A stretch of 64,000 bases of DNA from Lutibacter sp. B2 (GTDB lineage: Bacteria > Bacillota > Clostridia > Peptostreptococcales > Thermotaleaceae), in contig JADPRS010000016.1 in NCBI GenBank assembly GCA_015686845.1, positions 1-64,000 on the forward strand. Direction: 5' to 3'. Below are positions 3,828 to 62,480 of the stretch, piece after piece. How positions within the stretch are numbered: position 1 is the first letter of the stretch; each line of letters begins with the position of its first letter. A program made the translations under genes and the position numbers. The notes beneath the pieces were generated by a model. That model was not told where the DNA came from and ran no database searches. It saw only the letters and a program-made list of their open reading frames with translations.

Positions 3828-4877
3828 TTACGCTTTAATTTCTTTCATAATATTTTGAGAAAATGTAGCTACTTTTTTATCTAGGTCTGTTACCTTTAAT
3901 ATGCTTTCAGGATCATTTGCAGTGCACATTAATGCAAAATAAGGAGGAAGTCTAAATCCTTTATTTATATTTAAAGCAGCTATTAATTGTTTTGCTACAA
4001 TATCACTTCCAGAATTTCCTGATACGATGATTGAAAATAAAGTTTTATTATAAAAGGGTGTTCTTCTGTATAAAGAGGTTAGTCTATTTATAACAGCTGT
4101 TAGATTAGCGGAGATGGCATCATTATAATTTGGGCAGATCCAAAAAATTGCATCTGCCTTTTCGATGGCCGGATAGATTTCTTCTACCATAAAGCCCCCA
4201 TAAAAACAGCTATTATGTTTACTATAATGTTTACAAGTTTTAAAAGAGCATCCAATACAATCTAAAACTGTACCATTTTCAACATGAAGTTGTTCAATAG
4301 AATACCCAGCAAGGTGTTCTTTTATTATTTCCCATAGCAAAAGTGTGTTAGATGTTTTATGAGAGCTAGAATGAAGTGCAAGAATTTTTGGACTTTTCAG
4401 TATATCGGGTTGGTCATTCATTAATTTATATACAAGTTTTTTGCAGAGGATATAACATATTTCTTCTAAAGAAAGATTAAGTTTTTTCTTCCAAGTAAGG
4501 AAGGTATTTAATGAACCCGTAGCTTCAACTAAAGGATGCCCAATAAAACGACATCCTAGTTGATTGGTTAAAAATATAATATCTCTTGCAGCATTTTTAG
4601 TGTACAAATCATTAGAACTGTGAACTAAAATGGCAGCACTAGAGCCCAAAAGGGCAGTATTGCCCCTATCATACAGTTTGGATATGACCTCCATAATAGG
4701 CAAGGAGAGTCCCAGCGCATCCACTTCTATTATGAAGAGTATTTTTTTATTTGTAAGGTCAGGAAGATTTTTAGTTGAACAAATAATACTATATGAAAAA
4801 TCAGATATGGATTGATGCATCATAGTTGATAAATGGGTAGATAATTTACCAGGACAAATTACATATAGCTTATTCAT
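3828..4877 (-). CDS. Double flavodoxin-fold protein with NADPH-dependent FMN reductase-like C-terminal half
   Basis: The 349 residues divide into two similar-sized halves. The C-terminal half (about 163-349) is an NADPH-dependent FMN reductase/iron-sulfur flavoprotein-like domain. ILALHSSSHKTSNT (166-178) is the FMN-phosphate loop, and a Cys cluster C207-x2-C210-x4-C215 resembles the 4Fe-4S ligands of iron-sulfur flavoproteins, although the spacing is not canonical. The N-terminal half (LYVICPGKLS, KKILFIIEVDALGLSLP) also looks flavodoxin-like but lacks a clear phosphate loop. The ATG overlaps the stop of the dehydrogenase-like gene (ATGA), so translation is probably coupled. It is the last gene of the operon starting at 11049. 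I infer a redox role and cannot name the substrate. Confidence 0.7.
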   Translation of the reverse strand: MNKLYVICPGKLSTHLSTMMHQSISDFSYSIICSTKNLPDLTNKKILFIIEVDALGLSLPIMEVISKLYDRGNTALLGSSAAILVHSSNDLYTKNAARDIIFLTNQLGCRFIGHPLVEATGSLNTFLTWKKKLNLSLEEICYILCKKLVYKLMNDQPDILKSPKILALHSSSHKTSNTLLLWEIIKEHLAGYSIEQLHVENGTVLDCIGCSFKTCKHYSKHNSCFYGGFMVEEIYPAIEKADAIFWICPNYNDAISANLTAVINRLTSLYRRTPFYNKTLFSIIVSGNSGSDIVAKQLIAALNINKGFRLPPYFALMCTANDPESILKVTDLDKKVATFSQNIMKEIKA

Positions 4878-6115
4878 ATAGTATTCACCAGATTTCTATG
4901 GCAATCTTCTAGTCTTTGGTATAAAGAAGTTGGTAAATCTAATCTTTCAATTTCAGTCCCAGTATGAATGAGTCTATTTTTTGCACCCATAAATGCGCCA
5001 CCCATATATGTAGTACTATAATGCCATTTACCACTTATTGTATTTATAATGGAAAGGGCACCTGAAGATAGGGCTGGGGCAATATAAGGTTTAAATCCAG
5101 TGGCTCTTACTTCTAAATTTGCTGTTATTGTTTTATTTGTTAGATATAAGGATAAATCCTCATCGTAATTACTTATATTATTTGCAATAACTAATTCCTT
5201 ACCATGAGGGCCAAAAGCGCGTCCTTCATCAATATAGTCTTTTGTTTTATCATTTTGTTTAGAATAATAGACCGCACGTGCGTGCATTACTCCCAGGCCA
5301 TATCCTCTTATTTGTTCAGCTGATAATCCTTCAAAGTCTATATTTTCATTTTTATCAGTATTACTTTCTAAAAATGCTACTTTGCACAGTAGGTCTACTG
5401 GATCTGATACGACTGCAAAAATACCTTTGAAATTTTTTTCACGAGCCATTTTTGCATAAAGTTTTATTATTTTAGAATTTCCTTCTAGTTGAGCAATGCG
5501 AACATCTTTTACGTTACTTCCAACTTTTGGAACGCCCACAGAAGCACAAAATACAAACATGTCACAATCAAAAATTTCTTGTTCTGATATAATTCGTATG
5601 TCTGGAAAGTTAGTATTAGAATCAATAGAAAAAATTTGATTGATTTCAAAATCCCAACGCTTCAATTGATTGGTATTTGTTCCATAAATTCCAACTTCAG
5701 ATATATAATCTCCTCCTAATAGTCTAAGTCCCGTAGTAAGGGTTCCACCAACATCACCCATACCAATAATGTGAAGTCTCCATTTTGGGGGGATTGTACA
5801 CTTTAAACATTCTTGCCAATTAGGATAAGAAGTGTTAATAGATATTACTTTTTTTTCTATTATTTTTGTTTCAATCCATTTAGGAATAGTATGTTCCTTC
5901 GGATCTTTCTTAAGAAGATGAAGTCCTTCATTTTCTAAAAATAAAAGAGATGAATCTGTTATAGCAAAAGATTTTCTAGAATATAAAGGGTCAAATTTGT
6001 TTAAAAAGTATATAGTATCTTTTATTAAGCTTGCATCATATTCCGTTGTTTCCTCGAATTCACTATAAAGCTGTAAAGAAAATAGAATCTTATTTTTAAA
6101 TTTGTAGTAATACAT
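4874..6115 (-). CDS. Lactate/malate dehydrogenase-like protein with N-terminal extension
   Basis: 413 residues. The first 110 or so have no recognised match and precede a Rossmann domain that opens with HIIGMGDVGG (115-124), the NAD-binding glycine motif of the LDH/MDH superfamily. SDPVDLL (237-243) corresponds to the SNPVD block, and H304 in FGPHGKEL occupies the catalytic His position, where ordinary LDH/MDH has GEHG. The protein is longer than standard LDH (about 310 residues). Ordinary metabolic LDH/MDH genes are not usually coupled to such partners, so a specialised oxidation of a hydroxy acid-like intermediate is an inference. A strong AGGAGG precedes the start; it lies 17 bases after the giant gene and overlaps the next gene by 4. 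Confidence 0.75.
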   Translation of the reverse strand: MYYYKFKNKILFSLQLYSEFEETTEYDASLIKDTIYFLNKFDPLYSRKSFAITDSSLLFLENEGLHLLKKDPKEHTIPKWIETKIIEKKVISINTSYPNWQECLKCTIPPKWRLHIIGMGDVGGTLTTGLRLLGGDYISEVGIYGTNTNQLKRWDFEINQIFSIDSNTNFPDIRIISEQEIFDCDMFVFCASVGVPKVGSNVKDVRIAQLEGNSKIIKLYAKMAREKNFKGIFAVVSDPVDLLCKVAFLESNTDKNENIDFEGLSAEQIRGYGLGVMHARAVYYSKQNDKTKDYIDEGRAFGPHGKELVIANNISNYDEDLSLYLTNKTITANLEVRATGFKPYIAPALSSGALSIINTISGKWHYSTTYMGGAFMGAKNRLIHTGTEIERLDLPTSLYQRLEDCHRNLVNTI

Positions 6116-6132
6116 AATAAAAACCTCCTTGA

Positions 6133-9100
6133 TTATTTATTGAGTAATGTATGTTCTAATTTGTTCAAAAGCTCTAAGTCATTTTCTAAGTAATGAGAAG
6201 GATTTAGATTTAAGTCATAATACATATCTTTTCCATGATCTGGACATCGTGGAGATACGAAAACTTCTCCTAAAGATGCAAGTGTCAAATTACGTTCATG
6301 AATATCATGATAGATATTTTCGATTACTGATAATATGTTTATTGAGTTTTCAATACAAGTTTTAGAAAAATTGTATATTGCATCATTTGATGTATTTTTT
6401 AAAAAAGCAGGAGATGTATAGGGTAGTATTAAATTAATAGATGGAACTAAATTTCTTTGTGGAGTTTGACCTCGCCAAACCGTATCTCCTCCAAAAAATG
6501 GACATAAATAACTTTCGTTAAACCATGACCTCAGTTTGGGTATGTAATATGCACAATCTACTTCCCTTCCTTGTCTATCCATTAATTCTTTTCCTCTTGC
6601 AGATAATAAGCCAACAATGGTTTTTTTAACATTTGCTTTAGCATGTTGTAAAAGAGGATGAATTACATTATTTCTATAGCCTTTGTGCAAAATATCATCG
6701 ACTAAAATGATGGGTCTATTAAAAGCATGAATCATCTTGATTTGTATTTCAAGACTATTATAATGTGGAAATGGACCTATGATGAAATTTTTCATATGTG
6801 GTAAAAATAATTTTTCAGTGTGTAGTGATTTTGTTACAGTATTTGGTATAACGGATCTGTTTAAAATACTTCCAAAGGGAACGCACATTGAATCACCCAG
6901 TTTTTGTGGTTCTAGAGGAATCGTCGGAACTTTATTTTCTGCACAAATTTTTCTGATTAGGGTTGCATGCAAAAATTGTTTGTCGAATGATAATATCAAA
7001 TTACCAGGATACAAGTTTGTTAATGCTTTTTGTGTATTTTTTCTAGATTGTAAAATAGCAGCATGTACTTGCGGATTACTTTTGAAAGGTTCTTTAACAA
7101 AAGTATCTAGGTCAAGTAATAAAGTACAAGGTGAACTCATATTTACTGTAAAGACTGGATTTTTAGGATTACTAAAGGATAATTGTATAAATCCTTGAAG
7201 TCTTAATATTTCATGTAAAGATAATGAGCTATAATCTGGAATTATATTGTTGAAAACAGCATATTCATAGTCTTTAGAAAGACAAAATGAGAGGGTTTCG
7301 GTAAGAATAATCTGTTCTAAATTCTCAAAAGTAGCAGATGAATTAGCAAATATGCCATCAATAATTGCAATACGTCCATAGGCATTTTCTCTTATATATT
7401 CTGATATATTATTATCTTTTAAATCATTATAAAGTGTGTTTAATCTAGCCCAATGGTGCATGGAAAATCCTAATATTTTCCTATTATCCTCAAGGTCTCT
7501 TATAATTAATAATCTTGAAGACCGTTTTTTAGAGAATTCTATTAATTTAGTATGTAGTATTTCATGATTCATATTAAATAAAGAAGAAATTTCATGAATG
7601 ATTTCCGAATCTATATTTTCAATAATTTGGATTTTTATAGACATTTCTTCAGTAATACTTTTGTATTGTGGTTCGCTTCTATAAAAACCATTTTCATAGA
7701 TATACTTTTGAACTAAAGGATCTACTAGACTAGATATGTCACGGTTTTCATCAATATAATTACGAATTTGTGTTGAACTAATATCTTCATAAGGAGAAGA
7801 TAGAGCCAGTACGGTAACTTTTTCATTGATCTTTTCTATGGCAGTGGAAAAATTTGATTTTCTTTTCTCTGCTGGTAAAAGATGATTTCTTTCAAATATA
7901 ATGTGAGGAAAAGAATGTATGGAATTTTCTGTAGCCTCTTTTGTATAGCTAGAAGCATTTAAAACTACATCACTTCCTACTACTATATGGACTTCTGAAT
8001 AAGAAAAATTGTCCTTTAATTGTTTAAGTGTTTCTTTATTGGCTATATTAGTAGGAAAATGCTCAGGATATAAGTATATATTTAATTCATTTGCAATAGA
8101 CATATTAGCGATGTTTTTTCTTAAAAGATGCGGTAAAGTTTGTTTCGACCAAGAAAATTCATCAATTGCAAGATATACTTCAAATCCTAAATTTCTTACG
8201 GATTTTGCAATTTCTTTGTGTCCTAAAGAAAATGGATCAAATGTACCTGGAAAAAAAGCAATTTTTTTTGGAATCGTTAAGCAATAGTCTCCCTTTAAAA
8301 ATGTATACTCTGAAATAAAACGATATATATGATGAAGCGATGCTGAGTTTGATAAAAACAGTAGAGGCTCTTGTCTAAAATCATTTAAAAGAGTAAGCAT
8401 TTTTTTTGAAAGAAGTTGAAAAATGTTATTTTTTTCTTCTAGTGTTAGAGATGTAGAAGAAAAAATATCTTTTCCTATTACGCCTAAAGCAACTTGTTTT
8501 ACACGTATGGAATCATGAACAAGACCATTTAATAAAATACCAAGCATTTTTATAAGTCGTTGGTTGTATTGATTTTTGTCCTCATTAAATAAAAATTCAT
8601 ATTTAGGATAGTTTGTTATTGCAACCCCAATTGTTTTTAATAGTAATGAACTAAGATATTTATTAGATTGTTTAATTTTTATACTTAAGGCTTCTATTAA
8701 TTCGTCTAATTCACCTGGGTGTAATGCAAGAATAAGTTCACCAAGATAACTAGGAATATAGTCTACAAATTCATAACTATTAAGTTCAAGTGCACTGATC
8801 AACTCTACGGCTACTTCATTTCTATGTTCAAAAGATAGGTATGGAACTAAATCTAAGATTGCTTCGCCAGCCTGTTTTCTTACTGTATCATAAGTACTTA
8901 CTTTTAGTAAATTACAAAAATGAAGTGATGCATGAAAGCCTCTATTTTTTGGGTCTTCTAATGAATAATCTAGTAAAATAGACACTTGGATTTTTTTTAT
9001 AATTTTATTTGTTGCAATTTTTAAATTGCTTAAAAATATGGAAGGTATTTTATTTTGATCTTGCTTAAAAAAGTTTATGTATTGTAAAGTGATTTCTTCT

Positions 9101-11049
9101 TCTAAATCAAGAAATTTAGCTATTTTTAATTTCAAAAAATTTTCAGATGGATAGGCAGATGAATGTATATTTTTTATAAACATGTCATGTATAGACGAAA
9201 AAAATTGTCCGTTTTTTGAAAAACTAGGTATACGATGATATACAATTTCAAGTGCAGTAATTCTTAAAGAAATTTCTTCAGATTGTAACATTTTTATTAA
9301 GAAATTGTGTAAAATTTTAATACGATCGCTTGATTCATCGATAGGAATATATTTTAATGTCTTAAGAAGATATAATGTTGTGTTATCTTCCGTAAAATGC
9401 CCTTTTTTAAAATACTTAAGAAGAACAAATAAATAATCAGTTGATGGATGAAATAAAAATCTTTTTTGTTTGTTTTTTTTATGCGTAAATAAAGATGAAA
9501 TCATTGTGCTTAAAAGTTCACCAATCCATTCTCTATGTTTAGGTATTATTTTATGATCAGGATATAGAAAAAGTTGTACATATTTTTGTAAGAGGTCTAC
9601 ACTAATTATGTTTGGTGTATAGATATGTACATTATCAGGTACTTCTTTTCTATAATCTTCATCAAACATAGCAATCAAGGTGCCTATAAGCTTAGCACAA
9701 TGTTTTCTTATATCATCTTTAGGATGGGTTAGTTGTTCATATAAAAATCTCAACGTAATAATTTTTTGTTGTTGCGTTAAATAGATTGAATATTCATTAA
9801 AAATACGCAAATATTCACGTAGATTATTCCAATTTTTTTCACTGCGGGCTAATTGTAGTATTAAATTTAGAGAGTGTTCATCGCGTAATTGATACATAAG
9901 TTGAATATTATGATTTATGGATAAGTATTTTATATTATTTACAATATCTTCTCCTTGTAGTAATGAATAATGATTTTTTGATTTAGGGTTAGGAAGGTGG
10001 TTACTAAAAATAGACTCCACTTGAATGCCCAAATGAATCATAAAATTTTCGAAATCTTTTAGTTTGTTATATACACGTGTATATCGTTTTTGTTTGTTCG
10101 CATCTAATTGATCTAGTTTTTTTAATATAACATCGAATGATTCAGATAAACTGTATATATGCATTCCAAAATTTCCATCATGGCCCACATTATTTTTAAC
10201 ACGAAAATCACAATAAATAAGAATCAGTGATTCAAGGGATAAATTGTCTAATTCTAAATCCCAAACGGAATGGTTTAGTGCAATATTACGGATATATTCT
10301 ATATTTTGCTTTGTAAACCATAAATCAGTATAGTAGTAATGCAAATAAGGAACTCTTTTTTGTTCTTGTTTTGTACATCCAAATTTTCCAATATCATGTC
10401 CAGCTGTAGAACCAGATACTCTTCCAAGATCTACAGGAATATTTGTTAGTTTAAATTGGCGAGCAATATGAAGTGCTAAGTAATGAACCCCACAAATATG
10501 ATCCAATGTATTATGTCCTTCTATTTCATAATTTAGTTTCATCATTTCATAAATATATTCATCTTTAAATGCTTTTAAAAAAAGTTTATATTCACCAGGA
10601 TTTTCAAGAAATTTTTCTTCTTCTTTGGTTAAAAAAACGAGTGGATATTTACTTTGAAATGTAGTACCATCATATATTTTTTGAAATTCAGATATAATTC
10701 TTAAGATATCAAGATATAAATAACACACATGATCAAGTTCTCTAATAAGTTTAATATTTAATGCATGAGGAAAAGATTTTGATAGTGCAAATTGATATAT
10801 ATATTCTAACCAATTTTCAGGGATATTTTTTTTAGATAAATCTGTGAGCATATCTTTACACAATTCTAAAGTAGCATAACAGCTATAATCTTTTTTAGTA
10901 ATCATATTATTTAATTTAAGAAAAAAAGAGATATCTTGTACATGATTTGTAATGATTGATTTATCTATTTTTTTATCATTTAACCATGTATCATTGAGTA
11001 GTGTATTTAAGATATCATTGTATAATTTTTGTACGAGTCTATGGTTCAT
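6133..11049 (-). CDS. Giant multidomain protein: HD hydrolase, helical repeats, NadD-like nucleotidyltransferase, GNAT-like region, phosphoribosyltransferase
   Basis: 1638 residues, numbered from the ATG at 11049, which follows AAGGAGGATTTT (a longer frame starts at 11097 without such a site). Order of domains: an HD phosphohydrolase (about 180-290) with AGHDIGKFG (HD at 218-219), NHSVWD (259-264) and CDFRVK (D281). Next come about 550 residues of alpha-helical HEAT-like repeats. A class I nucleotidyltransferase (about 925-1110) has FPGTFDPFSLGH (933-944) and ISSTQIR (1090-1096), the two motifs of NadD/CoaD-type enzymes. A GNAT-like segment follows (about 1136-1300). A type I phosphoribosyltransferase (about 1320-1550) has the PRPP-loop-like PIILVDDILHKG (1446-1457). 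All key motifs look intact, suggesting an active multi-enzyme protein in nucleotide or cofactor chemistry. The actual reaction is unknown. First gene of a three-gene operon. Confidence 0.75.
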   Translation of the reverse strand: MNHRLVQKLYNDILNTLLNDTWLNDKKIDKSIITNHVQDISFFLKLNNMITKKDYSCYATLELCKDMLTDLSKKNIPENWLEYIYQFALSKSFPHALNIKLIRELDHVCYLYLDILRIISEFQKIYDGTTFQSKYPLVFLTKEEEKFLENPGEYKLFLKAFKDEYIYEMMKLNYEIEGHNTLDHICGVHYLALHIARQFKLTNIPVDLGRVSGSTAGHDIGKFGCTKQEQKRVPYLHYYYTDLWFTKQNIEYIRNIALNHSVWDLELDNLSLESLILIYCDFRVKNNVGHDGNFGMHIYSLSESFDVILKKLDQLDANKQKRYTRVYNKLKDFENFMIHLGIQVESIFSNHLPNPKSKNHYSLLQGEDIVNNIKYLSINHNIQLMYQLRDEHSLNLILQLARSEKNWNNLREYLRIFNEYSIYLTQQQKIITLRFLYEQLTHPKDDIRKHCAKLIGTLIAMFDEDYRKEVPDNVHIYTPNIISVDLLQKYVQLFLYPDHKIIPKHREWIGELLSTMISSLFTHKKNKQKRFLFHPSTDYLFVLLKYFKKGHFTEDNTTLYLLKTLKYIPIDESSDRIKILHNFLIKMLQSEEISLRITALEIVYHRIPSFSKNGQFFSSIHDMFIKNIHSSAYPSENFLKLKIAKFLDLEEEITLQYINFFKQDQNKIPSIFLSNLKIATNKIIKKIQVSILLDYSLEDPKNRGFHASLHFCNLLKVSTYDTVRKQAGEAILDLVPYLSFEHRNEVAVELISALELNSYEFVDYIPSYLGELILALHPGELDELIEALSIKIKQSNKYLSSLLLKTIGVAITNYPKYEFLFNEDKNQYNQRLIKMLGILLNGLVHDSIRVKQVALGVIGKDIFSSTSLTLEEKNNIFQLLSKKMLTLLNDFRQEPLLFLSNSASLHHIYRFISEYTFLKGDYCLTIPKKIAFFPGTFDPFSLGHKEIAKSVRNLGFEVYLAIDEFSWSKQTLPHLLRKNIANMSIANELNIYLYPEHFPTNIANKETLKQLKDNFSYSEVHIVVGSDVVLNASSYTKEATENSIHSFPHIIFERNHLLPAEKRKSNFSTAIEKINEKVTVLALSSPYEDISSTQIRNYIDENRDISSLVDPLVQKYIYENGFYRSEPQYKSITEEMSIKIQIIENIDSEIIHEISSLFNMNHEILHTKLIEFSKKRSSRLLIIRDLEDNRKILGFSMHHWARLNTLYNDLKDNNISEYIRENAYGRIAIIDGIFANSSATFENLEQIILTETLSFCLSKDYEYAVFNNIIPDYSSLSLHEILRLQGFIQLSFSNPKNPVFTVNMSSPCTLLLDLDTFVKEPFKSNPQVHAAILQSRKNTQKALTNLYPGNLILSFDKQFLHATLIRKICAENKVPTIPLEPQKLGDSMCVPFGSILNRSVIPNTVTKSLHTEKLFLPHMKNFIIGPFPHYNSLEIQIKMIHAFNRPIILVDDILHKGYRNNVIHPLLQHAKANVKKTIVGLLSARGKELMDRQGREVDCAYYIPKLRSWFNESYLCPFFGGDTVWRGQTPQRNLVPSINLILPYTSPAFLKNTSNDAIYNFSKTCIENSINILSVIENIYHDIHERNLTLASLGEVFVSPRCPDHGKDMYYDLNLNPSHYLENDLELLNKLEHTLLNK

Positions 11050-11215
11050 AAAATCCTCCTTTTTAGAAAAAGTGTATTTATATATATTATAACTCAAAAT
11101 GTATAATAAAGTACATGTAAAGTAAATTAGTGGAAGATGTAGTTCATATCCTTTTAAGGATTTAAAAAGTATAGTATAATGTTTATACTGAGTATAATAA
11201 AAGGGGATAGTAGAG

Positions 11216-12332: not shown

Positions 12333-12512
12333 AAAAGTCCTGGGGTGTGCGTTAAAGCCTGAAAATTCAACCTACAGAAAACATCCGGGAGTTCGTGTCC
12401 TTTTGCAAATGAAATGCCTCTTCAGAGAGGAATTCAAGAGTAATAGGTAGAACACCCACCTAGTGTGCATAGCGGGTGTGAATTTGAGGGTGGACGGCAT
12501 TCTGGGTCAATA
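12333..12512 (+). ncRNA. ssrS: 6S RNA
   Basis: 6S RNA mimics an open promoter and binds the housekeeping RNA polymerase holoenzyme. The 5' arm GTCCTGGGGTGTGCG (from 12337) pairs, using several G-U pairs, with the 3' arm GACGGCATTCTGGGTC (12493-12508). These ends resemble the conserved 6S ends known from E. coli (CTGAGATGTTCG and GGCGGCATCTCGG). The interior can form a long, interrupted hairpin, including ACACCC/GGGTGT near 12450-12480. The roughly 180-base length fits. The promoter sits directly upstream and a strong terminator lies at 12535-12570. Together with its flanks this element fills the 304-base gap between the NdpA-like gene and spoVB. Confidence 0.85.
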
Positions 12513-35300: not shown

Positions 35301-35324
35301 TATAAATAAGAAGTTAATATAGAA

Positions 35325-35622
35325 AAAGACTATGATGGAGAGAAAAGCATTGCAACTGTAATTCCAGAGAGTCGGGGATAGGTGAGAGCCCGATGTTATA
35401 AGACAATGTGTATGTTCACTCTAGAGTCGTTGCTCCAAAAGGTATTTCGAGTAAGAGCAAAGGGATGTCCCCCTTATAAGGACTACAGTTTAGCTTTTTT
35501 AGGTATACGTATGAAAGCAGACTGGAAAGCAGAAATTTTCAAAAAAAGAAATTTTATTTTTGATAAATTAGAGTGGTACAGTGAAGTCAATCTTCGCCTC
35601 TATATGGAGGCGGAGTTTTTTT
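35325..35622 (+). promoter_or_regulatory. T-box riboswitch, specifier UUC (Phe)
   Basis: Stem I begins at GACTATGATGGAGAG (35328), carries the AGAGA-type loop and the distal block GTCGGGGATAGGTGAGAGCC, and returns through ATGTTCACTCTAGAGTC. TTC at 35415-35417 followed by ACTCT-GAG fits the T-box specifier position, so the codon is Phe. The antiterminator T-box (GAGTGGTACAGTG, 35571-35583) has TGGT, which pairs with the ACCA-end of tRNA with discriminator A, as in tRNA-Phe. A terminator (CTTCGCCTC 35592-35600 with GGAGGCGGAG 35606-35615) runs into seven T. Uncharged tRNA-Phe should stop termination and turn on the transporter. This fills the 349-base gap ahead of it. Confidence 0.8.
35592..35622 (+). 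terminator. T-box terminator hairpin
   Basis: Nine-base stem with one G-U pair and loop TATAT, followed by TTTTTTT. Competes with the antiterminator that contains GAGTGGTAC just upstream. Confidence 0.85.
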
Positions 35623-35649
35623 ATTTGAAAAAATTTGAGGAGGGGTAAT

Positions 35650-37020
35650 ATGTCTTTAATAAATGAGAACAAAGAAAGAGATAAATGGTCATCGAAAATT
35701 GGATTTATACTTGCTGCGGCAGGTTCTGCAGTAGGATTAGGAAACCTTTGGAAGTTTCCTTATAGTGTAGGGAGTAATGGTGGTGGAGCCTTTGTTATGA
35801 TTTATTTTATATTTTTATTTGTTATAGGATTTCCACTTATGCTTGCTGCCATAACTTTAGGTAGAAAAACACAGCTTTCTGCTGTAGGCGCATATAGAAG
35901 TATAAAAAAGAAATGGGCTTTTGTAGGAGGACTCGGTGTTGTTTGTGGTTTTTTCATTTTAGCTTTCTACAGTACTGTAGGAGGATGGGTAATTTATTAT
36001 TTTGTAAAAGCTCTTAAAGGAGGGCTTGCTATAAAAGACCCTGAAGTACTAGGTTCGATATTTGGAGGATTTATATCTTCTCCAGTAGAAAGTATCCTTT
36101 ATCAAGGAATATTTCTTGTTTTAACGTTAGCTATAGTGCTTAGAGGAATTAGTGGAGGGATAGAAAAGGCAAGTAAAATAATGATGCCTGCCCTTTTCGT
36201 AATGATATTTCTTATATCAATAAGATCAATAACCCTTCCAGGTGCTTCAGAAGGGATAAAATTTTTCTTGGTTCCAGATTTTTCGAAGATCAATATGAAT
36301 GTAATAATGAATGCATTAGGGCAAGTATTTTTCTCATTGAGTATAGGAATGGGTGTTATGGTCACTTATGGAAGTTATCTAGATAAGGATTCAAATATTC
36401 TTGGACCTTCTGCATATATACCTATGTTAGATACGGCAGTGGCAATAATTGCAGGGCTAGCAACATTGCCAGCAGTATTTGCATTAGGTTTTAAAGCATC
36501 TTCTGGACCAGGACTTATGTTTGTAACCCTTCCAGCCGTATTTGCTAGTATGCCATTTGGAAAGGTATTCTGTTTCCTATTTTTCATGCTTGTTCTTTTT
36601 GCAGCACTTACTTCTTCCATATCAATGCTTGAGGTATGCGTATCTTATTTTGTGGATGAAAAAGGTGCAAACAGAATAAAAGCTTCAATTATAATATCAA
36701 TGATCATATACCTTGTAGGAATGCCAGCTTCTCTTTCTATGGGACCTTGGAAAGACGTACACATACTTGGGAATTTGAATTTCTTTGATTTTTATGATAA
36801 GTTGACTTCAAATATTCTTCTTACATCAGGAGGACTTCTTCTTTCGATCTTTGTAGGATGGGTATGGGGAGCAGATAATGCTGTAAAAGAAATAGAGTTA
36901 AGAGGCGTTAAGTTTAGACTTGCTCCTGTGTGGAAATTTCTTATAAAATACGTAGTTCCACCAGCAGTTTTTATAATACTGATAAATTCACTGAAGGAAT
37001 TAATTATGGCTATATTATAA
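35650..37020 (+). CDS. Sodium:neurotransmitter symporter family amino-acid transporter
   Basis: 456 residues, about 11 transmembrane segments, LeuT/MhsT-type NSS family. WSSKIGFILAAAGSAVGLGNLWKFPY near the start is the conserved TM1 with the sodium/substrate-binding GSAVGLGN block; later YGSYLDK and the TM6-8 blocks are normal. Start choice: TTG at 35635 is in frame, but GGAGGGG precedes the ATG at 35650. Because a Phe T-box leads it, the likely substrate is phenylalanine or a related aromatic amino acid (inference). MhsT-like 11-TM transporters take up hydrophobic amino acids. Confidence 0.88.
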   Translation: MSLINENKERDKWSSKIGFILAAAGSAVGLGNLWKFPYSVGSNGGGAFVMIYFIFLFVIGFPLMLAAITLGRKTQLSAVGAYRSIKKKWAFVGGLGVVCGFFILAFYSTVGGWVIYYFVKALKGGLAIKDPEVLGSIFGGFISSPVESILYQGIFLVLTLAIVLRGISGGIEKASKIMMPALFVMIFLISIRSITLPGASEGIKFFLVPDFSKINMNVIMNALGQVFFSLSIGMGVMVTYGSYLDKDSNILGPSAYIPMLDTAVAIIAGLATLPAVFALGFKASSGPGLMFVTLPAVFASMPFGKVFCFLFFMLVLFAALTSSISMLEVCVSYFVDEKGANRIKASIIISMIIYLVGMPASLSMGPWKDVHILGNLNFFDFYDKLTSNILLTSGGLLLSIFVGWVWGADNAVKEIELRGVKFRLAPVWKFLIKYVVPPAVFIILINSLKELIMAIL

Positions 37021-52816: not shown

Positions 52817-53380
52817 ATGTCTGGATACATAACGTTGGTTACAGGAGGCGCAAGAAGTGGAAAAAGTAATTATGCAGAAAAATTAGCGATGGATACGTCT
52901 AAATCTGTAGCATATGTAGCTACTGCAATTGGCTTTGATGATGGTATGAAAGATAGAATAAAAAAACATAGAGAATCTAGGCCAAAAGAGTGGACAACGT
53001 ATGAAGGATATAAAGATGTATATAAAATGATTGAGGAAATTTCACGAAATCATGAGGTTGTTTTGTTAGATTGTATAACGATTATGGTGACCAATTTAAT
53101 GTTTGATCATAAAGATATTAAGTGGGATTCCATAACGCACGAAAAAATAGATGAAATAGAAGGTAATATTGAGGAACAAGTTAGAAAATTACTCCAATCT
53201 GTAAGAATACATAAACTAGGAATGATTTTAGTTACAAATGAATTAGGCATGGGTATTGTGCCAGACAACAGAATATCTCGTATATTTAGAGATATAGCAG
53301 GACGAATAAATCAAATGATTGCAAAAGAAGCAGACGAAGTGTATTTTACTGTATCTGGATTACCAATGAAATTGAAATAG
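52817..53380 (+). CDS. cobU: Adenosylcobinamide kinase/guanylyltransferase
   Basis: 187 residues. Phosphorylates adenosylcobinamide and adds GMP to form AdoCbi-GDP. P-loop GGARSGKS at about 10-17; the later VVLLDCITIMVTNLM and VTNELGMGIVPDNRISR blocks are typical. First gene of the cobalamin cluster; GAGGTG precedes the ATG. Confidence 0.93.
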   Translation: MSGYITLVTGGARSGKSNYAEKLAMDTSKSVAYVATAIGFDDGMKDRIKKHRESRPKEWTTYEGYKDVYKMIEEISRNHEVVLLDCITIMVTNLMFDHKDIKWDSITHEKIDEIEGNIEEQVRKLLQSVRIHKLGMILVTNELGMGIVPDNRISRIFRDIAGRINQMIAKEADEVYFTVSGLPMKLK

Positions 53381-53394
53381 AAAGGAACAAAAAA

Positions 53395-54132
53395 ATGAAA
53401 AAATTAATTATAATGATACAGTTTTTAACGAGGATACCTATTAATGTAAATCTAGAGGTAAATGAAGATGAGTTTTTAGATGGAATTATTTATTTTCCAT
53501 TGGTAGGACTCATAATTGGAATGTTTATGGTTTCTTTTTATCATATAGGATATAAACTAGGGGGAAGTTTAGTTGCTGCAACAATGGCAGTCGCAGCTGA
53601 GGTATTTATTACAGGAGGACTTCACTTAGATGGATTAGGAGATACATTCGATGGCGTGTATAGTAACAGACCCAAAGAGAGAATTTTAGAAATTATGAAA
53701 GATAGTAGATTAGGAACAAATGCAGCCCTTGCTATTTTAATTACTATTTTATTAAAGATTGCGTTTATAGAGTGTATGCCATTACCTGAAGTATATGCTG
53801 TGTTATTATTGATGCCTGTTCTGTCTAAGCTATGCCAAGTATATGGTGCTAGATATTCTGTATATGCAAGAAAAAATGGAATGGGTGGTTTATTTATAGA
53901 AAAAGTAAATAATAAACAATTAATAGTTGCTCTATTCATAGCTACAGTAATTTGCTTAATATATTTTTGGGCAATGCTGTTTATAGTAATAGGGTATATA
54001 TTTAGTAGACTATATGTTAGACATATAACTAGTAAAATTGATGGAATGACAGGAGATACATTAGGTGCTTTATGTGAAATATCAGAAATTGTTTATTTGC
54101 TTTATTTTTTATTGATTTTTACGTGGCATTAA
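53395..54132 (+). CDS. cobS: Adenosylcobinamide-GDP ribazoletransferase
   Basis: 245 residues, five or more membrane segments. Joins AdoCbi-GDP to alpha-ribazole (or its phosphate), the last step of the nucleotide-loop pathway, at the membrane. IQFLTRIPI at the start, GGLHLDGLGDTFDG with acidic metal ligands, and the C-terminal GMTGDTLGALCEISE block are all CobS. Starts 14 bases after cobU. Confidence 0.93.
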   Translation: MKKLIIMIQFLTRIPINVNLEVNEDEFLDGIIYFPLVGLIIGMFMVSFYHIGYKLGGSLVAATMAVAAEVFITGGLHLDGLGDTFDGVYSNRPKERILEIMKDSRLGTNAALAILITILLKIAFIECMPLPEVYAVLLLMPVLSKLCQVYGARYSVYARKNGMGGLFIEKVNNKQLIVALFIATVICLIYFWAMLFIVIGYIFSRLYVRHITSKIDGMTGDTLGALCEISEIVYLLYFLLIFTWH

Positions 54133-54167
54133 GAGCTAGGGGTGTGTTATGAGAGAAGGTGAGTATA

Positions 54168-54761
54168 TTGATAAAATTAATATTTGTAAGACATGGTCAA
54201 ACGAAAAAAAATTTTGATGGATTATATTGTGGATGGAGTGATGACGACCTAACGGAAGAAGGGGAAAATCAAGCTAAAGTAGTCGCAGAAAAATTAAAAG
54301 AAGAAAAAATTACTAAAATATATGCTAGTAATTTAAAAAGAACGATGCAAACTGCTAAAATGATCAATAAATATCATGAAGTAAAGATTATAAGTAAAGA
54401 AAATTTAAGAGAAATGAACTTTGGATTATGGGAAGGTAAAAAATATAGTGAACTAAAAAGCGAATATGAAAAAGATTTATCCAAATGGGAAAAGGATTGG
54501 ATCCATTTTATTGTTCCACAAGGAGAAAATTTAATGAATATGTATGAAAGAGTATGTAAAGAAATGGAGCGAATTATAGATGAAAACAAAGAAGGAACAT
54601 TTTTAGTAGTAGCACATGCAGGCTGCATTCGTGCTATTTTATCGCGCTTTATTGGAATTGGAATTGAAGATTATTGGAAGTATAAAGTTGAAAATTGCAA
54701 GATTGCGTCCATAGAGATCTTAGAGGATGGATTCTCTGTGCTGACAGGCTTAAACATATAA
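54168..54761 (+). CDS. cobC: Alpha-ribazole phosphatase (histidine phosphatase family)
   Basis: 197 residues. FVRHGQTKKN near the start (RHG phosphohistidine), LREMNFGLWEGK (Glu acid) and VAHAGCIR (second His) give a full histidine-phosphatase site. Position between cobS and cbiA supports removing the phosphate of alpha-ribazole-5'-phosphate (or of adenosylcobalamin phosphate). GTG at 54159 and TTG at 54168 are in frame; AAGGTGAG fits TTG better. Confidence 0.85.
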   Translation: MIKLIFVRHGQTKKNFDGLYCGWSDDDLTEEGENQAKVVAEKLKEEKITKIYASNLKRTMQTAKMINKYHEVKIISKENLREMNFGLWEGKKYSELKSEYEKDLSKWEKDWIHFIVPQGENLMNMYERVCKEMERIIDENKEGTFLVVAHAGCIRAILSRFIGIGIEDYWKYKVENCKIASIEILEDGFSVLTGLNI

Positions 54762-54784
54762 AATTTTGAAAAAGAGGGATAGAT

Positions 54785-56170
54785 ATGAAATTTCCGAGGA
54801 TTGTATTAGCGGGTACCCAAAGTGGAGTAGGAAAAACGACTATATCTACAGGTATTATGGCAGCTTTAAAAAAGAAAGGGTTAAATGTTCAACCATTTAA
54901 AGTAGGACCTGACTATATAGATCCTGCCTTTCACAGCTTTGTTGCAGGAAATAAATCTAGAAATTTAGATAGCTGGATGATTTCAAAAGACAATATTATT
55001 GAATTATTTACGAAGAATGCAATCCAGAAAGATATAGCAGTAATAGAAGGCGTTATGGGACTTTATGATGGATTTGGAATAGAGAAAGATCAAGGAAGTA
55101 CTGCACATGTTTCTAAGCTTATTAAGGCACCTGTTATTTTGATTATAGATGGAAAAGGAATGTCATCGAGTGCTGCTGCACAAGTATTAGGATATAAACT
55201 TTATGATACCGACGTTGATATAAAAGGTGTAATTATTAACAATATATCTGGAGATGCTCATTACGAGCTAGTAAAGGAAAGTATTGAACGGGATACCAAA
55301 ATACAATGTGTAGGGTATTTAAAGTCTAATCTAAATATAGAATTAAAAAGTAGACATTTAGGATTAATCCCAAGTGTAGAAGTAGAAAATTTAAAAGAGA
55401 AGATAGATGAGATTGCTACTATGGTATTAGAAACCATAGAGGTAGAAAAGATTATTAAAATTGCTAATGAAGTAGAAGATTTACCCTATACAATAAAAAA
55501 GATAGATCATGAGGCAAAAATAAATATCGGTGTTGCTATGGATCATGCTTTTAATTTCTATTATGAAGACAATTTGGATTTATTAAAAGAACTAGGCGCA
55601 AATTTGATATATTTTAGTCCTTTAAAGGATCAACATCTACCAGAGAATTTGGATGGATTATACATAGGTGGAGGCTTCCCAGAAGTTTTTGCAGAAGAAT
55701 TAGAAAAAAATGGTTCAATGAAAGATGAAATCCTTTTTGCAATAAAAAATGAAATGCCTACTTATGCTGAATGTGGTGGACTTATGTATCTTTCAAAGTC
55801 TATTACAACATTAGAGAATGATCAATACAAAATGGTAGGGGTTTTTGATACAAATGCAAAGATGACAAAACATCTTCAGAGATTTGGATATGTAAATGTA
55901 AATATTACTACCCCTTGTGTTATTGGAAATGAAGGAAAGCATATTCCTGCACATGAGTTTCATCGTTCTTTCGTTGAAGAAAATCCTAATGAAGAATATG
56001 CATATAAAGTAGATAAATTTAGAAATGGAAAAAAAATCAAATCATGGGATTGTGGTTTGAAAAAATATAATACAATAGGTGCATATGCACATATTCATTT
56101 TTATAGTGATAAAAAAATTGCTGAAGATTTTATACATCATTGTATTGCTTATAAAGAAAGGAGTATTTAA
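54785..56170 (+). CDS. cbiA: Cobyrinate a,c-diamide synthase
   Basis: 461 residues. N-terminal DTB-synthetase-like ATPase (LAGTQSGVGKTT; VGPDYIDPAFH) and a C-terminal glutamine amidotransferase with Cys in YAECGGLMYL and a His in HEFHRS. Amidates the a and c side chains. Overlap-free but tightly linked with the next gene (4 bases). Confidence 0.93.
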   Translation: MKFPRIVLAGTQSGVGKTTISTGIMAALKKKGLNVQPFKVGPDYIDPAFHSFVAGNKSRNLDSWMISKDNIIELFTKNAIQKDIAVIEGVMGLYDGFGIEKDQGSTAHVSKLIKAPVILIIDGKGMSSSAAAQVLGYKLYDTDVDIKGVIINNISGDAHYELVKESIERDTKIQCVGYLKSNLNIELKSRHLGLIPSVEVENLKEKIDEIATMVLETIEVEKIIKIANEVEDLPYTIKKIDHEAKINIGVAMDHAFNFYYEDNLDLLKELGANLIYFSPLKDQHLPENLDGLYIGGGFPEVFAEELEKNGSMKDEILFAIKNEMPTYAECGGLMYLSKSITTLENDQYKMVGVFDTNAKMTKHLQRFGYVNVNITTPCVIGNEGKHIPAHEFHRSFVEENPNEEYAYKVDKFRNGKKIKSWDCGLKKYNTIGAYAHIHFYSDKKIAEDFIHHCIAYKERSI

Positions 56171-56174
56171 TACT

Positions 56175-57695
56175 ATGAAATCAAAAAGTTTAATGTTTCA
56201 GGGAACAGCATCTTCCGTTGGAAAAAGTTTGTTAACAGCAGCATTTGGTAGAATATTTACACAGGAAGGATATAAGGTAGCTCCTTTTAAATCTCAAAAC
56301 ATGGCATTGAATTCTTATATTACAAAAAAGGGTCTAGAAATGGGAAGGGCTCAGGTTGTACAAGCTGAAGCATGTAAGGTTGAACCCAGTGTACTTATGA
56401 ATCCAATACTGCTTAAACCAACAACGGATAAAAAATGTCAAGTTATTATCAATGGAAAAGTATATAAAAATATGTCTGCTGTAGAATATCATGAATTTAA
56501 GACCGAGTTAGCATCAATGGTAAAAGATACATATACAAAGTTAGCAAATGAACATGATCTGATTGTTATAGAAGGAGCTGGAAGTCCAGCAGAAATTAAT
56601 TTAAGAGACAAAGATATTGTTAATATGGGAATGGCAGAAATGTCAGATTCTCCTGTAATATTAATTGGAGATATTGATAGAGGAGGCGTATTTGCTTCTA
56701 TATTTGGGACCATAATGCTTTTGACAGAGGAAGAGAAGAAAAGAGTTAAAGGCGTAATTATTAATAAATTTAGAGGAGATATCGAGATCTTAAAACCAGG
56801 AATAAAAATGTTAGAAGATTTAATTAAAATTCCAGTTTTGGGAGTAGTACCCTATTATAATGTGCAATTAGAAGATGAAGATAGTTTAGCAGAAAGATTT
56901 AGAAATAAAAAAAATAAAGAAGGTCAGATTGAAGTTGCCGTTTTATATCTTCCGCATGTATCTAATTTTACAGATTTCAATGTATTTGAGACACAAGATG
57001 ATGTGAATTTAAGATATGTTATGAGAGGGGAAAGTATAGGAAATCCTGACTTGCTAATTATACCGGGATCTAAAAATACCATTGAAGATTTAATTTATCT
57101 AAGAGATACAGGCCTGGAAAGAGAAATTATAAGGCTTCATAGAGAAGGAAAACATATTATGGGTATTTGTGGTGGATATCAAATGCTTGGAACAAAAATT
57201 AGTGACCCCTATCATACTGAAAGTGAAATAGAGGAAATTAATGGATTAGGTCTATTAGATGTAGAAACTGTATTTGATATGGAAAAGACTACAACTCAAG
57301 TAGAGGGAGTCGTTATAGCAGATATCTTTGGGGGAATAAAAAATACACCTATAAAGGGATATGAAATTCATATGGGAAAAACCATTTTAGGGAAAGAAAG
57401 TAATGGACTTAATGCTATACAAAATTGTTTGGGTGAAAAAGTATGTATAGAAGATGGTGCCATAAACCCTAATGGAGATGTAATGGGTACTTATATTCAT
57501 GGAATATTTGATAATATAGGATTTACTAGAAAAATATTAAATCATATTAGAAGTATAAAAGGATTAGAGGAAAAGGAAAGCAATATTGAAAGCTTTGAGG
57601 CATTTAAGGAAAATGAATACAATAAGCTTGCGAAAGTGGTAAGAGAAAACGTAGATTTAGATAAAGTATTCAAAATAGCAAATGGTGAAATTTAA
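56175..57695 (+). CDS. cbiP: Cobyric acid synthase
   Basis: 506 residues; amidates side chains b, d, e and g of the corrin ring. FQGTASSVGKSLLTAAF near the start (ATPase) and MGICGGYQMLG (amidotransferase Cys) identify it. The longer frame from 56079 overlaps cbiA by 92 bases; AAAGGAG precedes the ATG at 56175, so that start is used. Stop overlaps the cbiB start. Confidence 0.93.
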   Translation: MKSKSLMFQGTASSVGKSLLTAAFGRIFTQEGYKVAPFKSQNMALNSYITKKGLEMGRAQVVQAEACKVEPSVLMNPILLKPTTDKKCQVIINGKVYKNMSAVEYHEFKTELASMVKDTYTKLANEHDLIVIEGAGSPAEINLRDKDIVNMGMAEMSDSPVILIGDIDRGGVFASIFGTIMLLTEEEKKRVKGVIINKFRGDIEILKPGIKMLEDLIKIPVLGVVPYYNVQLEDEDSLAERFRNKKNKEGQIEVAVLYLPHVSNFTDFNVFETQDDVNLRYVMRGESIGNPDLLIIPGSKNTIEDLIYLRDTGLEREIIRLHREGKHIMGICGGYQMLGTKISDPYHTESEIEEINGLGLLDVETVFDMEKTTTQVEGVVIADIFGGIKNTPIKGYEIHMGKTILGKESNGLNAIQNCLGEKVCIEDGAINPNGDVMGTYIHGIFDNIGFTRKILNHIRSIKGLEEKESNIESFEAFKENEYNKLAKVVRENVDLDKVFKIANGEI

Positions 57696-58642
57696 TGATT
57701 GAAATGATTTGCATAGGATATATAGCAGATTTGATTTTTGGAGACCCTTATTGTTTACCCCATCCTATTATATTTATTGGAAATTTAATTAGAAAGTGTG
57801 AAAAATTTTTAAGAAAGTATTGTTATGACCCCATAGCTGAGAAGAAAATGGGTGTAGTTCTCACATTTTTTATTGTTTTAATAACGTATACCATTACTTT
57901 AGCCATACTATTATTGGTTGGATCTATAAACAAGTACTTATATATGATCATACATTCATTTTTTATTTTTCAAATACTTGCGACTAAAAGCTTAGGGGTT
58001 GAAACTAAAAAAGTATTTGATCCATTAATAAATAATAATATTTTAGAGGCAAGAAAATACCTATCTTATATTGTTGGAAGAGAAACAAAAGAACTGAATA
58101 AAGACGAAATCACTAGGGCTTGTGTAGAAACGGTTGCTGAAAGTACATCAGATGGTATCATAGCTCCTTTGTTTTATATTGTAATAGGAGGAGCTCCATT
58201 AGGCATGGCCTATAAGGCAATCAATACATTAGACTCAATGATTGGATATAAAAATGATCAATATTATTATTTTGGCTGGGCAGCAGCGAAGCTTGATGAT
58301 ATAGTAAATTATATTCCTGCTAGAATCACAGGAATATGTACTTTTATAGCTGCATTTATCCTGAGATATGATTGGAAAAATAGTATAAGAATTTTTCTAA
58401 GAGATAGAAAAAATCATAAGAGCCCAAATTCTGGACATCCAGAATCTGCATTTGCTGGAGCATTGAGGATACAGATCGGTGGAACGAATACATATTTTGG
58501 AAAAATAGTGTGCAAGCCTACCATAGGAGATAAATTAAAGGAATTAGAGAGTGCAGACATTATAAAAGCTATCAGATTAACGTATATGACTTCATTTATT
58601 GGATTTGTATTTGGTATTATAGTTAGGGGAGGTCTATTATGA
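57695..58642 (+). CDS. cbiB: Adenosylcobinamide-phosphate synthase
   Basis: 315 residues, several membrane segments. DLIFGDPYCLPHPIIFIGNLI at the start and AVESTSDGIIAPLFYIVIGG-type and DDIVNYIPARITG blocks are CbiB/CobD. Attaches the aminopropanol (phosphate) side chain to cobyric acid. Shares one base with cbiP and four with the next gene. Confidence 0.93.
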   Translation: MIEMICIGYIADLIFGDPYCLPHPIIFIGNLIRKCEKFLRKYCYDPIAEKKMGVVLTFFIVLITYTITLAILLLVGSINKYLYMIIHSFFIFQILATKSLGVETKKVFDPLINNNILEARKYLSYIVGRETKELNKDEITRACVETVAESTSDGIIAPLFYIVIGGAPLGMAYKAINTLDSMIGYKNDQYYYFGWAAAKLDDIVNYIPARITGICTFIAAFILRYDWKNSIRIFLRDRKNHKSPNSGHPESAFAGALRIQIGGTNTYFGKIVCKPTIGDKLKELESADIIKAIRLTYMTSFIGFVFGIIVRGGLL

Positions 58643-59721
58643 AGATCGCTAAGCATGGTGGGAATATTTATGAAATGGAGAAAAAAGTAGGTATAGATAA
58701 AAGTGAATTTATAGATTTCAGTGCAAATATTAATCCTATAGGGGTACCTGAAAGCTTTAAAAATGCTTTGATTGAAAATATAGATATAATAAAGAACTAT
58801 CCAGACCCTGACTATGATTTATTAATAGAGTCTATATCAAATTATCACACTATAGATAAATCTTTTATAACTGTTGGAAATGGTGCGACGGAAGTTATTT
58901 TTTCAATGATTAATAGCATAAAGCCTAAATGTAGTTTGATTTTAGCACCAACTTTTTTAGAATATGAAAGAGCTTTAATCAAGGCTGGAAGTAGAGTAAA
59001 GTATTTTGAACTTGAAGAAAATAATGCATTTTGTTTAGACAATAATTTTTTGAATGTTATTGAAAATGATATTGATTGCATTATTTTATGTAATCCGAAC
59101 AATCCAACGAGTCAACTGGTTTCTTCTGACTTAATGAAAGATATTTTAGCCTATTGTAACACAAAAAATATTCATTTGATTGTAGATGAAGCCTTTATAG
59201 ATTTTGTGGACAATCCAGATGCAGAAAGTCTTTTAAAGTATACAGGTCAATACAATAACTTATATATTATTAAAGCTTTAACAAAGTTCTTTGCACTTCC
59301 AGGACTCAGAATTGGATATGGAATTACTTCAAATCAGAGTATTCTTCAAGATATAAAAAGCGAAAAAGAACCGTGGACTGTTAATAGCTATGCTGCACTA
59401 GCAGGAGAAGTTGTGTTAAAAGATAAGAATTATATCAAACAAAGTAGAGAATGGATCGTCAACGAAAGAAAACGTTTTTATAATTTATTAAAAGAAATTG
59501 ATTCAATTAAGGTGTATAAACCTAACTCAAATTATATTTTATTTAAAGTAAAGAATAAAGAAATAAAATTAAAAGAAATATTACTGAAAAACAAAATTTT
59601 AATAAGAAGTTGTGATAATTATAGAAACTTAACAAATGATTTCTATCGTATTGCAATCAAAGATAAAGAGAGTAATGATCAATTAATAAAAATACTCCAA
59701 GAGGTATACTATGGAAGTTAG
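58639..59721 (+). CDS. cobD: Threonine-phosphate decarboxylase
   Basis: 360 residues, PLP fold type I of the HisC-like family. AKHGGNIYEMEKKVGI and FSANINPIGVP (CobD start), NPNNPTSQLVS, DEAFIDF and the PLP Lys in KALTKFFALPGLRIGYG. Makes (R)-1-aminopropan-2-ol O-phosphate from threonine phosphate. The neighbour cbiB and the following pduX supply its role. Confidence 0.9.
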   Translation: MKIAKHGGNIYEMEKKVGIDKSEFIDFSANINPIGVPESFKNALIENIDIIKNYPDPDYDLLIESISNYHTIDKSFITVGNGATEVIFSMINSIKPKCSLILAPTFLEYERALIKAGSRVKYFELEENNAFCLDNNFLNVIENDIDCIILCNPNNPTSQLVSSDLMKDILAYCNTKNIHLIVDEAFIDFVDNPDAESLLKYTGQYNNLYIIKALTKFFALPGLRIGYGITSNQSILQDIKSEKEPWTVNSYAALAGEVVLKDKNYIKQSREWIVNERKRFYNLLKEIDSIKVYKPNSNYILFKVKNKEIKLKEILLKNKILIRSCDNYRNLTNDFYRIAIKDKESNDQLIKILQEVYYGS

Positions 59722-60583
59722 AACTAAGTGTCCAGCCTCGTGTGGGGAATTATTACAAGGAATAATTGGAAATGGAGAAAAGTTAATTTCCTATCCTATA
59801 GATTTATTTACAACAATCACTTTAAAAGAGGTTAAAGATCCTGAAAGAAAAAGAAATAAAAAATGTATAAGTGCTATATATAAGACATTAGAGTATTTTA
59901 AAGAAAATCCTAGTATTGCAAATTCTCTAGAAATTAAGGTGGAATCAAATATTCCTATCGCAAAAGGAATGGCAAGTAGTACGGCAGATATTGCTGCAAC
60001 AATTGTTGCCGTTTCCATATTATTGGGTAAGAAAATATCTGATGAGGAACTAGCAAAAATTTGTACACATATAGAACCAACAGATAGTACGATTTTTGAA
60101 AAACTCACACTATTTGACCATCTTAAAGGAAATATAATTGAAAATTTTGATTGGAATCCTTCCTTGGATATATTCCTTTTAGAATCTAGTGAAAGATTAA
60201 ATACACAAATATTTAGAAAACAAAATTATGATTATTTAAGAAAAATAAATAAAAATAAAGTAGAAAAAGCTTATGAAGTTTTTAAAGAAGCCTATAAAAA
60301 GAAAGATTATAGGCTTTTAGGAGAAGCTGCAACCATGAGTGCTTTAGCAAATCAAATTATATTAAAAAAGGATAAATTAGAAGAAGTCATTAATATATCT
60401 TTAAAAGAAGGCTGTTATGGAGTAAATGTAGCACATAGTGGAACCGTAATGGGCATTATATTTGAAAAAAATAAAATTGATTATGACAAATTAGTAAAAA
60501 GTTTAAAAGATCATTCTGTAGATCGTTATTATGAAAAAATGTATTTAACTAAAATGGTTAAAGGTGGAGTGCGTGTTATATAG
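59711..60583 (+). CDS. pduX: L-threonine kinase (GHMP family)
   Basis: 290 residues. GHMP kinase ATP site IPIAKGMASSTADI (about 77-90), the N-terminal KCPASCGELLQGIIG and C-terminal GCYGVNVAHSGTVMGIIF fit PduX. It feeds L-threonine-phosphate to CobD. Overlaps cobD by 11 bases. An inverted repeat separates it from cbiC. Confidence 0.88.
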   Translation: MEVRTKCPASCGELLQGIIGNGEKLISYPIDLFTTITLKEVKDPERKRNKKCISAIYKTLEYFKENPSIANSLEIKVESNIPIAKGMASSTADIAATIVAVSILLGKKISDEELAKICTHIEPTDSTIFEKLTLFDHLKGNIIENFDWNPSLDIFLLESSERLNTQIFRKQNYDYLRKINKNKVEKAYEVFKEAYKKKDYRLLGEAATMSALANQIILKKDKLEEVINISLKEGCYGVNVAHSGTVMGIIFEKNKIDYDKLVKSLKDHSVDRYYEKMYLTKMVKGGVRVI

Positions 60584-60598
60584 ATAACTTGTATAGCT

Positions 60599-60673
60599 AG
60601 GTTGTGATTATATAAACGTCGTTCAGGCAAGTATGAAGATTGCAAGTCACGCCTTATTATATAATCACAACCT
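60599..60673. repeat. Perfect 17-bp inverted repeat between pduX and cbiC
   Basis: AGGTTGTGATTATATAA (60599-60615) is matched exactly by its complement at 60657-60673, with a 41-base interior containing AGGC...GCCT. No T-run follows. A related ATAACCACAACCTA occurs after cbiT (63689-63702). It may be an RNA hairpin that regulates or processes the transcript, or a relic of an insertion. Confidence 0.6.
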
Positions 60674-60727
60674 ATGACAGTTAAATGGTAAAGTTATTAA
60701 TCTATAGAAAACTAGGAGGAGATATAT

Positions 60728-61348: not shown

Positions 61349-61366
61349 GATAAAGAGGATAAAATT

Positions 61367-62479: not shown

Positions 62480-62480
62480 A

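Follow-up and report, generated by a model that had tools for sequence, protein, structure and literature searches.

In Lutibacter sp. B2, three successive minus-strand open reading frames in the first 64,000 nucleotides of contig JADPRS010000016.1 (the whole of this stretch is hereafter called the window) encode a multi-domain protein of 1638 amino acids (A), a dehydrogenase-like protein (B) and a flavoprotein (C). These three genes are kept together in many anaerobes, and relatives of A are also paired with a small-molecule kinase; thus, the system appears to be real, and the existence of two alternative sets of partners (B and C, or the kinase) suggests a modular system built around A. We tentatively propose, with rather less than even confidence, that this system is a metabolic or nucleotide-signalling machine that is new in kind, in which a HEAT-scaffolded core of HD and phosphoribosyltransferase (PRTase)-like domains would work with either a nucleotidyltransferase, dehydrogenase and flavoprotein set or an APH-type kinase; Clostridia and Atribacterota would use it to make or recycle a nucleotide-linked cofactor that has yet to be described.

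The operon and its conservation

The three genes and the ribosome-binding site of the first are arranged as follows.

11054..11061, minus strand: Shine-Dalgarno-like sequence AAGGAGGA, preceding the ATG of A at 11049 (from sequence)
6133..11049, minus strand: gene A, 1638-amino-acid protein with HD, HEAT, NadD-like, GNAT-like and PRTase-like parts (open reading frame and homologues)
4874..6115, minus strand: gene B, 413-amino-acid protein of the lactate/malate dehydrogenase (LDH/MDH) superfamily (PF00056 at 1.1e-7 and profile matches to LDH/MDH structures)
3828..4877, minus strand: gene C, 349-amino-acid flavoprotein with FMN_red in its C-terminal half (PF03358 at 2.2e-22, residues 163-316)

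A previous reading of the sequence alone had described three tightly packed genes, and the spacing bears this out, with 17 nt between A and B and a 4-nt overlap (ATGA) between B and C. The reading frame of A, which ends at 6133, has an alternative TTG start at 11097.

Conservation of the gene order had been set beforehand as a test of the sequence-only reading, and A, B and C are found together at nearly every locus with flanking DNA. B was matched in 37 of the 59 relatives surveyed; at the loci of the best B-bearing relatives, A adjoins B in all cases and C lies on the other side of B in nearly all, apart from a few loci with a truncated contig or no detected C. At the best 80 loci, the order A-B-C is held wherever the contig permits, barring two with an insert of about 5 kb between A and B and one without a detected C. 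Homologues of A with around 1600 residues occur at about 70 loci. In two metagenome-assembled genomes (L042:4544-9856 and L047), an ammonium transporter and split glutamate-synthase genes sit between A and B. Stretches of GTDB species genomes selected by pattern matching encode a relative of B in 314 of 359 cases.

The order is found across many families of Clostridia and in Atribacterota, whose sequences form one clade, while the flanking genes vary. Most members of whole families carry the operon, which is chromosomal and inherited in a nearly congruent manner, and the pairwise distances within A, B and C run in parallel (correlations of 0.80-0.84), partly through shared ancestry. In a class-wide sample, B was present in 22 of 293 genomes and was separated by a wide score gap from ordinary LDH/MDH, and an order-wide sample contained A in 111 of 198 genomes; the co-occurrence of the three genes in one order is far beyond chance. 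Strict anaerobes of many families have kept this segment of about 7 kb whole, so it must be of use to its carriers.

The five domains of A

The following regions can be distinguished in A.

10030..10662, minus strand: HD phosphohydrolase domain, residues ~130-340 (PF01966 and ligand conservation)
8272..9942, minus strand: HEAT-repeat solenoid, residues ~370-926 (AlphaFold2 model m3466c85bc30f and PF02985)
7678..8268, minus strand: NadD-fold nucleotidyltransferase domain, residues 928-1124 (PF01467, TIGR00482 and fold; SxGH and ISSTxIR)
7138..7647, minus strand: GNAT-fold domain, residues ~1135-1304 (fold comparison of the AlphaFold2 model, alignments)
6136..7047, minus strand: PRTase-like C-terminal region, residues 1335-1638 (weak PF00156; ILVDDxLxKGYR loop)

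On A alone, Pfam and NCBIfam identify nothing beyond the NadD-like part, apart from the HEAT family PF02985 just below its cut-off. The other assignments draw on matches in homologues and on two AlphaFold2 models, which were made from alignments of 60-68 rows (one row from a plasmid record being left out) and reached confidence scores (pLDDT) of 88 and 89. The HD family PF01966 was matched in 21 of 25 homologues, with a best value of 4e-7 and one displayed score above the Pfam cut-off. The H...HD...D metal-ligand signature of the superfamily is present, and residues H184, H218, D219, K222, H237, H260 and D281 are invariant in 60 alignment rows and retained in most paralogues. The HEAT region resembles importin-beta, CAND1 and PP2A-A solenoids at Z scores of 13-15 in fold comparison. 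The NadD-like domain is matched by PF01467 (9.7e-8) and TIGR00482 (1.4e-13), the latter at 51 bits against an equivalog cut-off of 112.45 and a score of 197 for the true NadD of the same genome; its modelled fold aligns with 4rpi_B over 187 residues (Z 18.9, root-mean-square deviation 2.6), and its motifs are SxGH or SxSH plus an intact ISSTxIR. The next domain aligns with the GNAT protein 1wwz_A over 144 residues (Z 14.7, root-mean-square deviation 2.5).

The PRTase-like assignment is weak and the least certain of the five. PF00156 was matched in 12 of 25 homologues, with a best E-value of 1e-3. Matches to the NadD and GNAT domains took up the fold-search list, and the lack of PRTase and HD folds in it carries no weight; the model has an alternating order of strands and helices, and D1451 is invariant in the acidic ILVDDxLxKGYR loop. 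No standalone version of this domain was found elsewhere in the phylum among 299 genomes. The domains that the sequence-only reading had named in A therefore stand for the HD and NadD-like parts and only weakly for the PRTase-like part, for which there is a profile match below cut-off and the acidic loop, and that reading had missed the HEAT solenoid and the GNAT fold.

B and C

Both partners carry recognisable redox folds, as had been suggested before, and one region in each deserves to be listed.

5336..5785, minus strand: NAD-binding Rossmann domain of B, residues ~111-260, with the motif GMGDVG (PF00056 and structure profiles)
4206..4259, minus strand: four-cysteine motif of C (C207, C210, C215, C224), a possible Fe-S site inside the flavoprotein domain

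The PF00056 match of B (the LDH/MDH NAD-binding domain) lies above cut-off, and the glycine motif GxGDVG is retained. R206, R280 and H304, which are conserved in the family, align with LDH Arg109, Arg171 and His195. Some homologues consist solely of residues ~111-413, so the N-terminal extension appears to be dispensable. C is a flavoprotein of the flavin mononucleotide (FMN) reductase type, judging from its PF03358 domain, and probably an Fe-S protein as well, judging from four cysteines conserved in more than 92% of 74 homologues; its N-terminal half is conserved as well and lies outside the PF03358 match.

Second copies of A beside an APH-fold kinase

A search for the NadD family also returned A-like open reading frames of about 1600 residues without B nearby. 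In three lineages (f1, f2 and f28), such second copies, which lack both B and C, adjoin an APH-fold kinase in three different orientations. In f1, the copy of A is directly downstream of the kinase gene, in tandem, with either a 23-nt overlap or 14 nt between them, while in f2 the two genes are convergent (tail to tail) and in f28 divergent (head to head). The kinases of the three lineages share 28-45% identity and have their HxD, N and DFE residues intact; lower-scoring homologues away from A exist too. In a quick tree of A with a midpoint root, the f1 copies are nested with strong support inside the A proteins of the A-B-C type, the f28 copies fall elsewhere among these, with weak support for their exact neighbours, and the f2 copies are basal. 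Given these separate placements, the pairing of A with the kinase recurs, either through independent recruitment or through retention with replacement. Such a recurrence in three orientations is hard to explain unless A and the kinase share a function.

The NadD-like domain has decayed in part of these copies. Its catalytic residues are lost in the f2 copies and in one f28 copy, where the ISST and GSD motifs are altered and, in f2, His944 is replaced by Gln; the other f28 copy has lost ISST. The HD ligands and the PRTase-like loop are retained in these same copies, and a related protein of 1217 residues (L161:6437-10090) retains little of the NadD and GNAT parts but has kept the HD and PRTase-like motifs. 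Since NadD decays while the HD and PRTase-like motifs stay, we consider these two domains to be the core and adenylylation to be needed mainly with B and C as partners. The NadD-like domain is thus not the invariant heart of the system, being additional to the housekeeping NadD and dispensable in some kinase-paired copies. A second copy without the kinase, in the f1 genome G008 (L147:6427-11241), carries Tyr in place of H260, which damages its HD motif, and is perhaps in decay.

The surroundings of the second copies differ by lineage. In f1 (L146, L147, L149 and L150), the kinase and second A copies are preceded by adjacent genes for PanB and a DUF2520 Rossmann protein, and this pair could hold a ketopantoate reductase. 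Another A-like gene without B or C (L159:6055-10830) adjoins coaBC. The panB/DUF2520, purMNHD and coaBC neighbours are each limited to one lineage.

Proposed function and alternatives

How might these parts work together? Our preferred reading, though we would not give it even chances, is that A brings several enzymes together on a scaffold to convert a small metabolite linked to a nucleotide or phosphate. The HD phosphohydrolase and PRTase-like domains on the HEAT solenoid would form its invariant core, and where A is accompanied by B and C in the operon, the NadD-fold domain would use ATP to adenylylate a phosphorylated intermediate, probably a ribose-phosphate. B would bind a carboxylate-bearing substrate through its LDH-like arginines and carry out an NAD-dependent redox step on the metabolite of A, while C would perform a redox step on the same metabolite with FMN and probably an Fe-S centre. 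In the kinase version, the APH-fold enzyme, a small-molecule kinase, would replace B and C beside A, and the adenylylation step could drop out. The data show the gene set and its conservation, the folds, the conserved motifs, the coupling of A to B and C or to the kinase, and the loss of the NadD site in kinase-paired copies; that the domains are active, that they all act on one metabolite and that the steps follow such an order is what we infer. Several observations weigh against this scheme. The first His of the NadD HxGH motif is replaced by Ser in A; the displayed PF00156 scores are 14-16 bits against a gathering score of 26.3, and the loop of the PRTase-like region (HKGYR) differs from the canonical phosphoribosyl pyrophosphate (PRPP) loop. 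The acetyl-CoA pyrophosphate loop (Q/RxxGxG/A) is absent from the GNAT alignments of A, in which the loop region is variable, and this domain may therefore be structural. In B, an invariant Met277 stands where LDH has Asp168 to pair with its catalytic His, so the His195-Asp168 pair is absent. The kinase-paired f1 copies retain their NadD motifs, and thus the decay of this domain is not universal. Finally, no constant pathway-gene neighbour of the operon was found; the neighbours change by lineage.

The large HEAT scaffold, the degenerate GNAT site and the degenerate NadD site of some copies would also suit a protein that serves chiefly as a sensor or a regulatory scaffold, whose domains bind nucleotides such as NAD(H), ATP or PRPP and whose solenoid controls B, C or further enzymes so as to adjust redox or amino-acid catabolism to the nucleotide state. 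Genes of amino-acid and nitrogen metabolism do recur nearby: glutamate dehydrogenase in separate lineages, serine dehydratase (sdaAB) coupled to A in Tissierella, the glutamate synthase and ammonium transporter mentioned above, and, immediately upstream of A, a sigma-54 activator with a KDD-like N-terminal domain (L156:3989-6067 and L157:13817-15916). This domain matches L-erythro-3,5-diaminohexanoate dehydrogenase (NF052381) in L156 and is assigned in L157 by sequence likeness, and the protein may represent a transcription factor that senses through an enzyme-like domain. We nevertheless discarded the recurring gdhA, sdaAB and gltB/amt neighbours as a clue to the pathway, because, by our estimate, recurrence in two lineages is around the chance level given thousands of families. 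Moreover, the HD catalytic ligands and the active-site residues of B and C are conserved as in enzymes, and we regard a mainly regulatory A as the less likely interpretation, at perhaps one chance in several.

The earlier suggestion from the sequence that the genes make or consume an NAD-like compound may hold, and NadD/NMNAT proteins are the nearest structural relatives of the domain in A; in addition, by sequence alignment to NadD motifs, Tyr1035 presumably occupies the position of the NadD ring-stacking Trp. An auxiliary synthesis, salvage or repair of NAD or a similar cofactor, in which the NadD-like domain would form a pyridine dinucleotide while NAD-linked redox steps or damaged nicotinamide nucleotides would fall to B and C, is nonetheless rather improbable. 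A separate housekeeping NadD scores above cut-off in 57 of the 59 relatives, the presence of A-B-C does not clearly track nadA among them, the TIGR00482 score is less than half the equivalog cut-off, and several kinase-paired copies have lost the motifs of NadD catalysis. The idea of a nucleotide-signalling or anti-phage defence system fares much worse and is very improbable, even though multi-domain nucleotide enzymes with HD domains do occur in defence systems. No PADLOC family matched the operon below an E-value of 0.06 (the sole entry was ShosT at 0.065), no homologues of A-B-C were found in viral contigs, and the operon is stably inherited in whole families beside varied neighbours among which no defence genes were noticed. 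We give least credence of all, close to none, to an accessory role in sporulation or glycine reduction. Both traits are common among carriers, but some carriers lack Spo0A (for example, G019, G024, G026, G030 and G035) or GrdB (for example, G023, G034, G045 and G047), and there are non-carriers that have these genes; the presence of A-B-C among the relatives does not clearly track grdB or Spo0A, and we rejected this role as contradicted by the genomes on both sides.

The proposal of a modular, A-centred machine draws on five nucleotide-handling or scaffold folds in one protein and on two sets of partners, which point to a new cofactor, nucleotide-repair or nucleotide-signalling pathway. The same two alternative sets of partners make the system testable.

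Other features of the window

No Rfam riboswitch match was found upstream of A in seven relatives or in the window. Outside the operon, a 6S/SsrS RNA (RF00013, 74 bits) occupies 12334-12512 on the plus strand, shortly after the gene that neighbours A, and a T-box leader (RF00230) is found at 35323-35604 on the plus strand, directly upstream of a sodium-symporter-like gene (35635-37020). A long cobalamin-biosynthesis cluster appears to extend over 52817-63684 on the plus strand, with genes that, judged by eye, resemble CobU/S/C/A/Q/D and precorrin methyltransferases.

Comparison with known systems

The sequence-only reading had recognised no known operon in this set, and we agree: A resembles no characterised pathway protein, and no description of the A-B-C operon was found in the full-text literature searched, which does not extend to subscription papers or preprints. 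The individual parts do have relatives. Residues 928-1124 of A share with NadD (TIGR00482/PF01467) the fold, the GTFDP start, the second His of HxGH, GxD and ISSTxIR, but differ in having Ser for the first His of HxGH and a score far below the equivalog cut-off, in lying within a protein of 1638 residues beside a housekeeping NadD, and in having decayed in some paralogues. The neighbourhood of NadD and YqeK, an HD-type Ap4A hydrolase, likewise couples an HD phosphohydrolase with a NadD-like domain. In the relatives, however, YqeK occurs separately with its own NadD neighbour, and hhalign gave no alignment over the domain between the HD profile of A and YqeK, for which the set was small and partly made of fragments.

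B shares with the L-lactate/malate dehydrogenase superfamily the Rossmann domain and the equivalents of Arg109, Arg171 and His195, while Asp168 is changed to Met and Asn140 to Asp, the C-terminal half is specific to the family and the scores are far below the LDH and MDH cut-offs. Residues 163-316 of C are similar to NADPH-dependent FMN reductases and iron-sulfur flavoproteins (PF03358), including a Cys-rich motif as in clostridial members, whereas its additional conserved N-terminal half and its location beside A and B set it apart. The A-linked kinase is akin to the APH and choline-kinase-like enzymes (PF01636, 8e-18, with HxD, N and DFE) and is distinguished from them by the signature GNHxLxRHxVY and by its linkage to A. 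The combination of a nucleotidyltransferase with a kinase is a concept known from NadR and other fused enzymes of NAD biosynthesis, although the kinase fold and the architecture differ from those of the A system.

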